Shown piece by piece: positions 57,776 through 63,493 of a stretch of 64,000 nucleotides of DNA. A program made the position numbers and the translations under genes. The stretch's first letter is position 1. The number at the start of each line of letters is the position of its first letter. The stretch spans positions 1 through 64,000 of the forward strand of contig JADZFK010000138.1 in NCBI GenBank assembly GCA_020849945.1. The letters are read 5' to 3'. The DNA comes from Pirellulales bacterium. Its GTDB lineage: Bacteria > Planctomycetota > Planctomycetia > Pirellulales > Lacipirellulaceae. The notes under the pieces are model-generated. The model did no database searches. It had not been told where the DNA came from and saw only the letters and a list, made by a program, of their open reading frames with translations.

Positions 57776-58044
57776 ACTCCGTAAGAGTTCATTGGCAGTG
57801 CAGTCGTCAATAAATCGCAGGAGGAGAGCGAAATACGGAGGCGTAAGCCCTGGTGGGTGGTAGTAAGCGGTGACAGGCCTGTGTCACCGCAAGAACTGAA
57901 TTGGAAGAAAAAATGGCTTTGACGTTGTTACAAAAAACGTGATAGACAAATGTCTCGCAGTTGGCATCTCAACCCGCAAGCGAGGCGAGGGCGATGGACC
58001 AAGAGGATTGGAGTGCGATTGATTCGCAGTCTGAAGAGGATGTG

Positions 58045-58545
58045 ATGAAAATATCGCAATCGATTGCGTATGCCTTGTTTGCGACGACGTATTTGGCCAC
58101 GTTGGACGATCGTTGCCCGGTGCCTTGTAGCGAGCTTGCCCAGCGGGGAAAGCTGCCGATTCGATTCTTGCTTCAAGTTCTTTGCAAGCTGGTGAAGGGA
58201 GGGGTGCTGACAAGCGCATGCGGAACCTCGGGAGGCTACTCGTTGGCCAAGTCGCCCGACCAGATCAGCCTACGGGAGGTTTTCGAGGCGATCGATCCGC
58301 CGAGTAAAGACCATTACACCGCGTTAGGATGTTTGCCCTCGGGAACGCGGAGTCGGATCACCAAGGCGCTTACCTCGGCCCACAAGGTTCAAATGGGCGA
58401 ATTGCAATCGTGGTCGTTGGCGGACGTTGTGAACCATTCTCGGACCCAGGCGGGGGTGCTTGCGATGCCAGGCTTGAAAGCGATAACGAAGCCCCGCGCG
58501 AGCAAGGTCCCGACCGAGATCAAAGTGCCCAAGCAAACGGGTTAG
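58045..58545 (+). CDS. Rrf2 family transcriptional regulator
   Basis: MKISQSIAYALFATTYLATL...LLQVLCKLVKGGVLTSACGTSGGYSLAKSPDQISLREVFEAID. Confidence 0.85.
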   Translation: MKISQSIAYALFATTYLATLDDRCPVPCSELAQRGKLPIRFLLQVLCKLVKGGVLTSACGTSGGYSLAKSPDQISLREVFEAIDPPSKDHYTALGCLPSGTRSRITKALTSAHKVQMGELQSWSLADVVNHSRTQAGVLAMPGLKAITKPRASKVPTEIKVPKQTG

Positions 58546-58767: not shown

Positions 58768-59787
58768 TTATTCGCTGAGTGAGTTGCTTCCGTGGCGTGA
58801 GGCACCGATGGGCATCCCTGGGGGCAGCGGGCGGACGGCGATGGCGAAACCCATTTGGCGGATGATACGTTTCATTTCGCGGAGCCGTTCGTAGTTGCCG
58901 GGGTAAGTCCAGATGGTGATGGTCGTGCCCTCTGGCCGATGTTGCTGGAGTTGCTGCACGAACTCGGAGTTGGCGGCGAGTGCATCGGCAGCCGGCTCGC
59001 CGGGTGGTGAAACCTCCGGTAGCATGTGGCAGTGCGAGAACTTGTAGGCTTGGCCGGCCATGTAATCTCCGGCGGCATTTCGTCCAACGAGTCCTTCCTT
59101 GACGAAGTAGTATTTTAGCCGAAAGCCACTGATGGGTCCGATCGTGCGTTGCATTTGGTCTTGTGTGCGAAGTCGCCAGACATTTGCCTGGGCATCGCTC
59201 TTCATTTGCTCCATGAGCGAATCGAAGGGCACGACCACGAGATGGTCTTCGGAGAGGAGCACGTGAATTTCTTTTCCGGTGACGGCCTGCGAGACCGGAG
59301 TGGGTTGGCATTCGAGTGATTCGGTGGGTGGGCCGCGCGAGATGAGGGCGACTTGCTCGCGGGTGAGGTCGTCGAGCTTTGCTTGAGCAAGGGCGATTTT
59401 GTGCCGCAGGTCGAAATCGCGTTGATCGTTGGTGGAAAGCTTTTGGCGTCGAGCTTCGATTTCTTTTTCGGCTTCGACGATGGCGGTGCCGAGCCAGGCG
59501 CGTTCGCTTTCGCGGAACTGGGTTTCGAGATGGGCGTTTCCGACTCGACCCACGAGGTTTCGGACATCGCGTTGGGTGTTTAGTGCATTTCGGTAGGCCT
59601 GCTGAAACTCTTGTTCGCTGTGGGCTTGGTCGGCAAGCAGTTCGTCGGTATCGCTGCGGACCGAATGGCTGGTGCGAAGGCCGACAACAAGCACGAGGAG
59701 AATGAGAATACCGACGATGTTCGTGATGACGTCCAGAAAGGAATCCTGGCCGGGCATTTGATCGGCTTCGATTTCGGCGCGTTTCAT
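58768..59787 (-). CDS. ExbD/TolR-like partner subunit with coiled coil (contains TM-proximal Asp)
   Basis: QDSFLDVITNIVGILILLVLVVGLRTSHSV; coiled-coil region; C-terminus TTITIWTYPGNYERLREMKRIIRQMGFAIAVRPL. Confidence 0.65.
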   Translation of the reverse strand: MKRAEIEADQMPGQDSFLDVITNIVGILILLVLVVGLRTSHSVRSDTDELLADQAHSEQEFQQAYRNALNTQRDVRNLVGRVGNAHLETQFRESERAWLGTAIVEAEKEIEARRQKLSTNDQRDFDLRHKIALAQAKLDDLTREQVALISRGPPTESLECQPTPVSQAVTGKEIHVLLSEDHLVVVPFDSLMEQMKSDAQANVWRLRTQDQMQRTIGPISGFRLKYYFVKEGLVGRNAAGDYMAGQAYKFSHCHMLPEVSPPGEPAADALAANSEFVQQLQQHRPEGTTITIWTYPGNYERLREMKRIIRQMGFAIAVRPLPPGMPIGASRHGSNSLSE

Positions 59788-61649
59788 GGGTTCTTCCGGG
59801 GCTGGGCGTCAGGGTTGGCCGGATCATCGATTCGGACTTCGAGGCCGCTGTTGCGGAGGAGTCGCTGGAGGTCACGTGCGCGTTGGGGGCCATCGGGGGC
59901 AACGCTCAGGAGGAGGACGGGGCGCCAGTAGAGCCTGTCGCCCGCCATGCCCCAACCGTCGATTTGGTTCCGGACATGCTTGACGAGTTCGTCGACGGCG
60001 AGGACGGTATCGCCCTGGAAGGGGATCGATTTTCCCGGCGCGTTAGCCGAGGGCGTACCATCGGACATGATCGTGAGCTGGTCGTTGCGGACGACGATGC
60101 GAATCGTGCGGCGAACGGGGGTCGCATGTTGAGGTTTTTGGCGTAAGGCCCAATCGTTTCCGCGGGAATCGGCCATGCTGGTGATGATGCGTTTGTTTGA
60201 TTCGGCATTGGCGTCGTAGTAGCCTGGCCCGGCGGGGGTGCCGCCGGCCATGACACTTACGTTGCGAGGCGAGTTGGTTTCGGTGGGGGCGCCGAGGTCG
60301 CTTGCGGTTGGCGAGCCGGGGGCGACACCGCGAGGGGCGTCGGAGGGGGGTGCGTTGGGGGGGCCGCTCGTTCCTGCTGAAGCAGGAACGCCGGGGGAGC
60401 CGCTGGAATGAATGCTGGAAGGGACGCCGGGGGAGACGCTGGAGGGGGCGCCGGGGGGGGCGTTCGATCCTGCTGAAGCAGGAACGCCGGAGAGGACGCC
60501 GGAGGGAACGCTGGAATGAACGCCGGAGAGAACGCCGGAGAGAACGCCGGAGGGAACGCCGGAGGGAACGCCAGCAGGAACGGTGGGGGGGGAGGCGCCG
60601 TTGGCTGTAGTGTTGGTTGAGATTTCGCCGTAATCGTCCTCGGCTTCTTGGAACGGTTGTTCGTCGTCGTTGACGCCGTAGCGTTCGTCGGCGGAGATGG
60701 CCGAGCCTCGGTATGCGCGAGGAGCTGCCGCGGCAAGGACTTCCTGCCGAGCGCGGGCTTGCTGCAGGGCCACTTGCTGGATGGACGCGAGATTGATATC
60801 AGGCTGTGGGAACTTCAGCTTCCAGTCGTCTTCCACGAGTTCGAAGCCGAGATCGAAATCGCCGGCCTCGATCGCTTGACGAGCGCGGTCGAAGGAGACC
60901 AAGCCGGCGGGCCGAACGAGGAGCAGGGGGTAGGGTTCGGTATCGCGGTTTTGCCCTTCCTTGGGGATGAGGCGAACATAGTAATCGCGGGAAGCGCGGA
61001 GCGTGGAAGCCAGCGGGTTGCCCGCGCCGTAGGGTGGCAGCAGGTCGTTGGCCGGCACGAGCACGCCTTCGGGCTGAAGGATAACGCCTTCCTTGACGCA
61101 CTCGACATACATGGGCCGACGAAACGTGCCGTTGGGTCCTTCGTAAGGCACGACCGCGTACGAAGCGGGAGCCTTCTGGGCTTCCTCTTGGAGAGAGCCG
61201 ATCGTGGTTTCGGCCTCGGAGACAAGTTCGTTGAGACGTCCGAGTTCTCTCTCGGCTTGGGCGCGGTCATCGAGGTGGTCTTTTTCGAGGGCGTCGAGTT
61301 CGACCGCGGCCGTTTGGACGGAACGTAATCGTTCTTGCAGTCGGCGGATATGGTCTTCGACGTGGCTGAGTCGTTGGTGTTCCTCGTGGAGTTTGTGTTC
61401 GGCCTGTTGACGGGCGGAGCCGAGGCTACCGGTGTAGGCGTGGACCATCTCAATTTGTTTGGAGAGGCCGCCGTCGGCATGTTTGGCGGCGGTACGGTTG
61501 GCCTCGATGTGTTCTTGGGCCGTGTCGCGCGCGCTGCGGCTAACCGCGACGAGGACGACCAACAAGGCGCCCATCGTGCAGAGCAGAATCCCGATAAAGG
61601 GAAACAGCGAAATCGGGCTAGAGACTTCGTGTTCGCGGAGGCGGCTCAT
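59784..61649 (-). CDS. Second ExbD-like partner subunit with long coiled coil and repeat linker (no TM Asp)
   Basis: SPISLFPFIGILLCTMGALLVVLVAVS; coiled coil; C-terminus RDLQRLLRNSGLEVRID; ATGA coupling. Confidence 0.65.
   Translation of the reverse strand: MSRLREHEVSSPISLFPFIGILLCTMGALLVVLVAVSRSARDTAQEHIEANRTAAKHADGGLSKQIEMVHAYTGSLGSARQQAEHKLHEEHQRLSHVEDHIRRLQERLRSVQTAAVELDALEKDHLDDRAQAERELGRLNELVSEAETTIGSLQEEAQKAPASYAVVPYEGPNGTFRRPMYVECVKEGVILQPEGVLVPANDLLPPYGAGNPLASTLRASRDYYVRLIPKEGQNRDTEPYPLLLVRPAGLVSFDRARQAIEAGDFDLGFELVEDDWKLKFPQPDINLASIQQVALQQARARQEVLAAAAPRAYRGSAISADERYGVNDDEQPFQEAEDDYGEISTNTTANGASPPTVPAGVPSGVPSGVLSGVLSGVHSSVPSGVLSGVPASAGSNAPPGAPSSVSPGVPSSIHSSGSPGVPASAGTSGPPNAPPSDAPRGVAPGSPTASDLGAPTETNSPRNVSVMAGGTPAGPGYYDANAESNKRIITSMADSRGNDWALRQKPQHATPVRRTIRIVVRNDQLTIMSDGTPSANAPGKSIPFQGDTVLAVDELVKHVRNQIDGWGMAGDRLYWRPVLLLSVAPDGPQRARDLQRLLRNSGLEVRIDDPANPDAQPRKNP
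60373..60588. repeat. In-frame 12-nt minisatellite, 18 units
   Basis: Constant 12-nt register with consensus GGAACGCCGGAG; encodes (P/L)SGV-type tetrapeptides on minus strand. Confidence 0.9.
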
Positions 61650-63493
61650 GCGGCTTGGTTGGCGGCTTCACCGCCAGCGAGATCAAGGGACCGAACGTGG
61701 AGTGGGTGCCCGAGGCGGGCACTGAGGAGCTGAATGGCGGCGGAAAGGTTGAGGGCCATCTCTTCGAAGTTGTGGGCATTCTGCACGGCGTTCAAGTTGC
61801 TGGAAAGCGACTCTTCGAGTTTGCGGATATGGCCAGTGGCATCGACGACTTTGAGGAGGACATCGGCTTGTCGGATTAGTTGTTCCTGTTGCTCGACGGT
61901 AGCGCTGGCTGCTTCCACAAGGGCGACCTGGATTTCTTTGAGGAGGTGTTCGCTTTGTTGGATGAGGCGTTCTTGCCGTTCGGCCGCGTTGGTCATGGCG
62001 ATGCCGAGGGCGGCCTCGACCTCGGTAAGGTGCTGGCGGTTTTCCGCGGCGAGTTCCTTTTCACTGGCGGTCAGCACTTCGCCGTGCCGTTCGAGGGCTT
62101 CGATCAGGAGTTCGGCAAGTTTTTCGAGGCCTTCTCGGAGCCGGTCGGTGGTGACTTGGGTGCTCAGGTCGAGTTGTTCGGCGTGTTGGGCCGAGCTGGC
62201 CACGAGGCGGTCTACGTGTTGCTTTGCGCCTTGGTTGATCGATTCGGCGAGGCAAGTGATGCTTTCCGCCACCGAGGTTGCGAAGGAATCGCGGAGCGTG
62301 CGAGCGGCACCGATGCTTGCGTCGGCCCATTGGAGTTGGGTTTGATCGAGGGTGTGCTTCCAAATGTCGGCTTGCCGGCCCGCGAGCGATTCGATGGCCA
62401 ACACCACCTGGTCGGTCATGCGGCGGATCGCGGCGACGTTGGGATCGGAGTGGTTGGCCTCGGGAACCTCGCCGGTGGACTGGAATCGGCCAACTAGTTC
62501 GTGAGCGACACGCTCATCGACGCGGCCGAGGAGTTTGTCTTCCACGCGTTCGACGGCAGACTTCGTAAACATCAGGATCATGGTAAGCGAAAGGGCGGTG
62601 GCGGTGTGATCGAAGGCCACGCCCAACCCGTGGGTGACTTTGGTCATCGATTCTTCGAGCGTTTCGGGATTCAAATTTGCGACGGCGATCGTGATGCCGA
62701 TGACGGTGCCCAACAGGCCTAAGATCGGGATGGCCCAAATGATGATCCGCACCGTGGCGTATGCGCCGTTGATGCGAACCGACTCGACCTCTTCCAGATG
62801 TCGGAGGCGCGAATCGAGCGTATCGGCCGAGCCGGTGCGGCGGATGAAATCGAGGGCGTCGCGGAGCCGGCGGACAAGGAAGGTATCTTCCAAGGTGCAA
62901 TGCTGGGCGAGTTGGGCGAGGAGGGCATCGCAATCGGCCACGGTGTTGCCGCCGTTGGGAACCGCGGGTAGTAGGATCGCGCGCAACGACGAGAATTGGC
63001 CCACGACATTTAAGAATCGCAGAACGAGGGCGGAAAGGCCAATGAAGAACACGGTCAGTTCGATGATTTCGATGGGGTGCCCGGCGCAGTAGCGCGAAAG
63101 CAACTGGCTTTGGATGATCCCCTGACTTAGGAGGGCGAAGAAATTCGCGGCGATCACCACGCCCCACATGAGCGGTTGGCCCAGGATGAGGTCGGCGAGC
63201 GGGTGGCGTTGCTCGATCGAGCGTGGTTGGAACAAGTCGAACATGCCGACGGCCGCACCGACCGCGGCGCAGAGTCGGAGAACGGTGATGAGTAGGTCGT
63301 GCCCTTGGGAAAGGGTGTTGGTATCGGGATCGCGGAGTACGAACGGCAACAACGAGGACCACGAGAACAGGCAAGCGGCGAGGATCCAGAACGTGCCACG
63401 AGGGCACTTGCCCAGCAGGGCGTTGAAGCCCCAGAGCGTGGCCGCCACTACAGCTAATGCCAAACCAAGATTGGTGATCGAAAGTGCATCCAT
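61646..63493 (-). CDS. MotA/TolQ/ExbB proton-channel family protein with long C-terminal coiled tail
   Basis: AIPILGLLGTVIGITIAVANLNPETLEESMTKVTHGLGVAFDHTATALSLTMILMF; about 250 aa of helical tail. Confidence 0.85.
   Translation of the reverse strand: MDALSITNLGLALAVVAATLWGFNALLGKCPRGTFWILAACLFSWSSLLPFVLRDPDTNTLSQGHDLLITVLRLCAAVGAAVGMFDLFQPRSIEQRHPLADLILGQPLMWGVVIAANFFALLSQGIIQSQLLSRYCAGHPIEIIELTVFFIGLSALVLRFLNVVGQFSSLRAILLPAVPNGGNTVADCDALLAQLAQHCTLEDTFLVRRLRDALDFIRRTGSADTLDSRLRHLEEVESVRINGAYATVRIIIWAIPILGLLGTVIGITIAVANLNPETLEESMTKVTHGLGVAFDHTATALSLTMILMFTKSAVERVEDKLLGRVDERVAHELVGRFQSTGEVPEANHSDPNVAAIRRMTDQVVLAIESLAGRQADIWKHTLDQTQLQWADASIGAARTLRDSFATSVAESITCLAESINQGAKQHVDRLVASSAQHAEQLDLSTQVTTDRLREGLEKLAELLIEALERHGEVLTASEKELAAENRQHLTEVEAALGIAMTNAAERQERLIQQSEHLLKEIQVALVEAASATVEQQEQLIRQADVLLKVVDATGHIRKLEESLSSNLNAVQNAHNFEEMALNLSAAIQLLSARLGHPLHVRSLDLAGGEAANQAA

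Follow-up and report, generated by a model that had tools for sequence, protein, structure and literature searches.

A three-gene locus of Planctomycetia encoding an ExbB-like channel protein and two ExbD-like partners, one of which bears the membrane aspartate

Results

Gene organization of the locus

The window, a stretch of 64,000 nucleotides from a Pirellulales genome (GenBank assembly GCA_020849945.1, contig JADZFK010000138.1), carries three genes on the minus strand, here called A, B and C, whose start codons were picked by alignment (Table 1). A previous sequence-only reading had described them as three minus-strand genes joined by 4-nt ATGA overlaps, the first encoding a MotA/TolQ/ExbB core followed by a long helical tail. 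Strand, coordinates and both overlaps proved exact, and A matched PF01618 (MotA_ExbB) over residues 202-322 with a score of 40.4 bits (cut-off 22.9), followed by a tail of ~290 residues, in agreement with that description. All 61 aligned A orthologues likewise matched PF01618 above the cut-off.

Table 1. Features of the A-B-C locus in the window and additional ExbB/ExbD sets of the same genome.
Feature	Position	Strand	Remarks
Gene A (P0001, 615 aa)	61646..63493	-	MotA/TolQ/ExbB-type channel subunit with long helical cytoplasmic tail (PF01618, hydropathy)
MotA_ExbB core of A (residues 202-322)	62528..62890	-	invariant Pro256, Thr263, Thr297
Cytoplasmic helical tail of A (residues 323-615)	61649..62527	-	sequence, alignment
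Overlap ATGA, A stop/B start	61646..61649	-
Gene B (P0002, 621 aa)	59784..61649	-	Asp-less ExbD-like arm
B membrane segment (residues 12-37)	61539..61616	-	site 20 (codon 61590-61592) Gly; usually Ala in relatives
B coiled coil (about residues 43-159)	61173..61523	-	AF2 model; extent also read as about 60-159
B domain 1 (about residues 165-280)	60810..61157	-	predicted beta-beta-(beta)-alpha-beta-alpha-beta (AF2)
B disordered Gly/Pro/Ser-rich linker (about residues 330-484)	60198..60662	-	AF2 pLDDT below 50
B domain 2 (about residues 505-615)	59805..60137	-	predicted topology as in domain 1
Overlap ATGA, B stop/C start	59784..59787	-
Gene C (P0003, 339 aa)	58768..59787	-	Asp-bearing ExbD-like arm
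C membrane segment (residues 15-39)	59671..59745	-	invariant Asp19 (codon 59731-59733)
C coiled coil (about residues 47-150)	59338..59649	-	AF2 model
C periplasmic domain (about residues 165-325)	58813..59295	-	predicted beta-beta-alpha, three-strand insert, beta-alpha-beta (AF2)
Extra ExbB/ExbD sets, own genome	G000:C175:5311-7078; G000:C1:6374-7868		loci L003, L004, L185, L186, L188, L189

Pro256, Thr263 and Thr297 of A were invariant across the alignment of 61 sequences. By motif alignment they appear to correspond to the Pro and the Thr ring of ExbB/TolQ, where the Thr ring, with the Pro, faces the Asp (PMC12215075). The second Pro of ExbB (Pro190) had no apparent conservation in A in the same alignment. 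The A protein of the window's lineage is extended at its N-terminus by additional hydrophobic segments, which most orthologues, ~440 aa long, lack. The best match of the A profile in the PDB was 8vvn (E = 2.4e-7), aligned through the tail, which is the ZorA protein of type I Zorya (PMC11890865).

Predicted architecture of B and C

The AF2 models, with a mean pLDDT of 73 for B and of 88, a good confidence, for C, predict a membrane helix near the N-terminus of each protein, then a coiled coil and, towards the C-terminus, an alpha/beta part; the first two, and a C-terminal segment with an ExbD/TolR-like pattern, had been proposed from the sequence. B apparently has a pair of C-terminal domains, one on either side of the disordered linker, which are similar to each other by hhalign (E = 2e-6). 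The order of strands and helices in TolR and ExbD, beta-beta-alpha-beta-alpha-beta, is that predicted by AF2 for both domains of B and, with an insert, for the domain of C.

The ExbD/TolR nature that had been proposed for these C-terminal parts was reflected in the predicted topology and in none of the searches. A search of the own genome with PF02472 (ExbD) returned six ExbD proteins, neither B nor C among them, and this family was absent among the Pfam matches listed for 63 B and 77 C members. Profile comparison of B and C with an ExbD profile built from the same order was not significant, and Foldseek, run against the PDB with the whole models of B and C, found nothing significant (for B, TolR 5by4 ranked 49th with E = 0.22). 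Since Pfam, the ExbD profile and Foldseek thus gave no confirmation, we call B and C ExbD-like in plan, as judged from the predicted topology, and not members of ExbD; the missing matches of the periplasmic parts count against the motor interpretation set out in the Discussion. The matches of B and C that did appear in Pfam, NCBIfam and PADLOC were coiled-coil noise and were rejected.

The membrane Asp is present in C and missing in B

Asp19 of C lies in DSFLDVITNIVGILILLV, and the equivalent place in B, within SLFPFIGILLCTMG, is taken by Gly20; the two sites were in register in the C-B profile alignment, and the membrane segments of B and C taken alone were similar to each other with E = 7e-7. 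The Asp that marks ExbD/TolR, located in the membrane helix ~4-5 residues from the helix start, is thus found in C and lacking in B. That only one of the two partners bears the membrane Asp, as first noticed in the window, proved to hold widely among Pirellulales loci: C had Asp at this site in all 80 loci, whereas the B site, in the 68 of these loci with an intact B N-terminus, was Ala in 65 (four of these, L141, L142, L150 and L165, read by eye), Gly in one and Asp in two, that is Ala or Gly in 66/68. A pattern extending across 80 related loci shows that the asymmetry of the site is not due to chance. Twenty further loci from other families of the class agreed, with Asp in C in 20/20 and Ala, Ser or Thr in B in each of the 19 that have B.

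Canonical ExbD proteins of the same order, retrieved by profile search from 34 loci, carried the Asp in every case, including those encoded as adjacent pairs; one profile match, in L197, was a reverse-frame artefact. As canonical ExbDs of the order keep their Asp, the loss is peculiar to B. The own genome holds two more ExbB genes, each with two adjacent ExbD genes that bear the Asp (Table 1).

The two B proteins with the Asp belong to one lineage of Pirellulales (f19; L041, L044, L135 and L143), as FSFLDGML or FTFLDVML, and may have either kept or regained it. In this lineage A lies at a distance of ~600 bases in G036 and on a different contig in G019. A B protein with the Asp and an A gene set apart count against a heterodimer with one Asp.

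Conservation and distribution of the trio

C was present in 139/147 Pirellulales genomes, mostly in single copy, and in 163/199 genomes of the class. Among the eight Pirellulales genomes without C, G050, G052 and G135 retain A and B, which adjoin a contig end in G050 and G135; G075 and G086 are 62-65% complete; and searches of G097 and G099 gave no match for A, B or C. G251 likewise matched none of the three. Within the order, the trio is a core locus of near-universal occurrence. The expectation that the partners would be conserved beside the channel gene was borne out, the three genes forming a conserved unit: every complete trio among 80 named loci had the order A-B-C (67/67), and most of the incomplete ones run off the end of a contig.

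Around the trio, no gene family was conserved at the 21 loci compared or throughout the order, and the genomic context therefore gives no function. The neighbouring genes vary, and encode proteins which we take, from our own reading of the sequences, to be queC/queD-like, bioA-like, lspA-like, threonine synthase-like, accC-like and excisionase-like. A plasmid search with C and a phage search with A returned no match.

In the phylum-wide sample, close matches stayed within the class. The exception was a shorter trio of a second type (L092-L097, L099) with A of about 515-570, B of about 272 and C of about 375 aa. This second type has Ser at the Asp site of B and is found in scattered genomes, in some of them adjoining the first type. 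More distant trios of the phylum (L098, L101 and L102) have an Asp in the membrane segments of both B and C.

Coiled-coil lengths of B and C vary together

Coil length was determined in B and C at 72 loci as the span between the membrane site and the beginning of the domain; after removal of redundancy, the two lengths were compared by independent contrasts on the A-gene tree. They were strongly correlated (r = 0.75, 51 contrasts, p = 2e-10), and remained so when the three contrasts of greatest influence were dropped (r = 0.66, p = 2e-7), whereas four control pairs involving the B linker and the C domain gave |r| values of 0.02-0.23, none of them significant. At L053, for instance, ~80 residues have been added to the stretch in B and ~70 to that in C. 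As a paired coiled coil needs equal lengths, stalks of equal length fit a pairing of the two proteins, and the co-variation supports the view that B and C may work side by side; equal coil lengths would be expected as well if separate B2 and C2 homodimers had the same gap to bridge.

A sister family with the arms and without the channel

In f105, a sister family within the class, all 18 loci have B next to C, or have C at the edge of a contig, and A is not nearby. The Asp motif of C was missing in 18/18 of these loci and the B motif was gone too; in L243 and L278 the old C helix is still visible with Gly replacing Asp. Among 31 f105 genomes, searches with A detected distant A-like proteins only (E = 1e-34 or weaker), as compared with E values of 1e-64 to 1e-120 for A in the six families whose C carries the Asp. 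The joint absence of A and of the C Asp supports the conclusion that the Asp is retained where A is retained and, beside the coil lengths, is a second result in favour of joint action. The loss of both was probably a single evolutionary event, and f105 hence counts as one strong observation and not as many. That f105 keeps a divergent A-like protein elsewhere in the genome counts against the motor interpretation set out below. These orphan proteins are 433-522 aa long and carry the motif SALQIAFDSTLLALFLS (L262-L267, e.g. L267:7302-8867); at six such loci there was no B, C or ExbD neighbour within the stretches examined.

Discussion

We consider it fairly probable, with a probability of about 0.6, that A, B and C form one inner-membrane, ion-driven motor of the 5:2 type, the central dimer of which would be a B-C heterodimer with one ion-binding Asp. 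The heterodimeric stator or force-transducing machine suggested by the sequence-only reading finds partial support, in the conserved three-gene unit, in the asymmetric pair of arms, and in the signs that B and C work side by side and that the Asp goes with A. In such a motor five A subunits would ring one B and one C, a 5:1:1 ratio with B in the pore that we infer from the data given above. C would supply the sole ion-binding Asp, and B would contribute a helix of the same kind with Ala, Gly, Ser or Thr at the site. Both coiled coils would run jointly into the periplasm, where three small alpha/beta domains, one on C and two on B, may grip a target in the envelope. With ions passing through A by way of Asp19 in C, the two arms would rotate or rock relative to the surrounding ring, and the cytoplasmic tail of A could serve for anchoring or sensing.

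Models of rotary motors of the 5:2 type assume a pair of equivalent Asp residues that alternate. If there is indeed one Asp and the usual two-Asp alternation holds, half the ion-binding events per turn would be expected. A natural motor in which a single Asp has long been fixed would, if true, test the need for alternation, as well as the change in step and in ions per turn and the purpose of a dead arm.

In stating that stators usually employ a homodimer whose two copies each carry an Asp, the sequence-only reading leaves out known ExbD-like pairs, AglQ/AglS (PMC9389320) and the TolR-like and vWA pairs which occur in PVC and other bacteria (PMC12204202). The AglRQS gliding motor of Myxococcus xanthus, like the trio, combines one MotA/ExbB-like subunit with two MotB/ExbD-like partners that differ from each other. 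AglQ and AglS are, however, both described with a conserved Asp, and whether they form hetero- or homodimers was unsettled in 2022 (PMC9389320), whereas one partner in the trio is Asp-less with two C-terminal domains and A is long-tailed. The TolQ set of PVC bacteria shares with the trio the phylum level and the combination of one channel with two different TolR-like partners; it has a TPR gene and a vWA transducer adjoining it and may differ in this from the trio, beside which no family was conserved at 21 loci, and the section consulted of PMC12204202 describes no loss of the Asp. ExbBD/TolQR have in common with the trio the Thr-ring channel core, a short N-terminus, a helix of the P-F-x-(D)-V type and a small periplasmic domain, but possess two identical ExbD or TolR copies with an Asp each and no coiled coil of ~100 residues, and B and C give no Pfam ExbD match. 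Pairs of ExbD-like proteins are thus already known. Word searches of open-access papers found no description of a fixed Asp-less partner, and we therefore count the fixed Asp-less arm as new.

In the solved motors of this kind the central dimer consists of two copies of one protein (PMC9389320). The channel might accordingly be shared by two homodimeric complexes, A5C2 being the active motor and A5B2, in which the B helix could fill the pore without carrying ions, an inactive or locked regulator. The order of the genes, their 4-nt coupling, their near-universal co-occurrence and the co-variation of the coils fit one assembly better, and we regard two separate complexes as unlikely. Rather improbable, too, is an arrangement with C2 as the sole axle and B outside the ring as a TonB/TolA-like transducer: the missing Asp, the long Gly/Pro/Ser linker and the distal domain of B are transducer-like, but the B helix is homologous to that of C, the B coiled coil matches that of C in length, and B has no motif of the SHLS type, which TonB and TolA carry (PMC12204202). 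That A is a scaffold without ion flow and the Asp a structural residue is very unlikely in view of the invariant Thr pair and Pro in A, the invariant Asp in C and the absence of A and Asp together in f105, even though ion flow through A is here something that we infer.

ZorAB of type I Zorya resembles A in that a MotA-like core runs on into a long helical tail on the cytoplasmic side, the ZorA structure 8vvn being the best solved relative of A (E = 2.4e-7), and PADLOC returned weak ZorA matches to A (best 6.7e-7). It is unlike the trio in that ZorB is a homodimer with an Asp per copy and a peptidoglycan-binding domain, and Zorya is a defence system. PADLOC gave no ZorB-like match for B or C, and none at all for C; effector neighbours such as ZorC/D or ZorE are not conserved, the variable neighbours being housekeeping genes; and the trio has a single-copy core distribution. 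A Zorya-like anti-phage system is on these grounds hardly credible. Core-gene inheritance and the absence from plasmids and phages argue against a role in defence, and our guess is a vertically inherited envelope function, in stabilisation or growth, and not defence or the transport of a single substrate.

Returning to the B-C heterodimeric motor, we give about even odds to its extension to the whole class, in which a core 5:2 motor with an obligate heterodimer, a single ion site and a long-fixed Asp-less arm would be general and the sister family f105 would keep the arms as a passive envelope strut without the motor. The trio is a near-universal, single-copy and uncharacterised envelope locus in the Planctomycetes class of the window, and in one family, f105, the arms seem to have become separate from the motor.

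Two minor features of the locus deserve mention. A gene on the opposite strand just downstream of the trio (57961-58545) encodes a protein which, from its sequence, is presumably an Rrf2-like regulator; at just three other loci were members of its family found close to the trio. The junction between A and B is a 4-nt overlap in 56/66 loci, and A ends in Ala-Ala in 63/67 loci (positions 61649-61654 in the window; loci L104-L183), an end that may be dictated by the GCA-TGA overlap or may act like a degradation tag.
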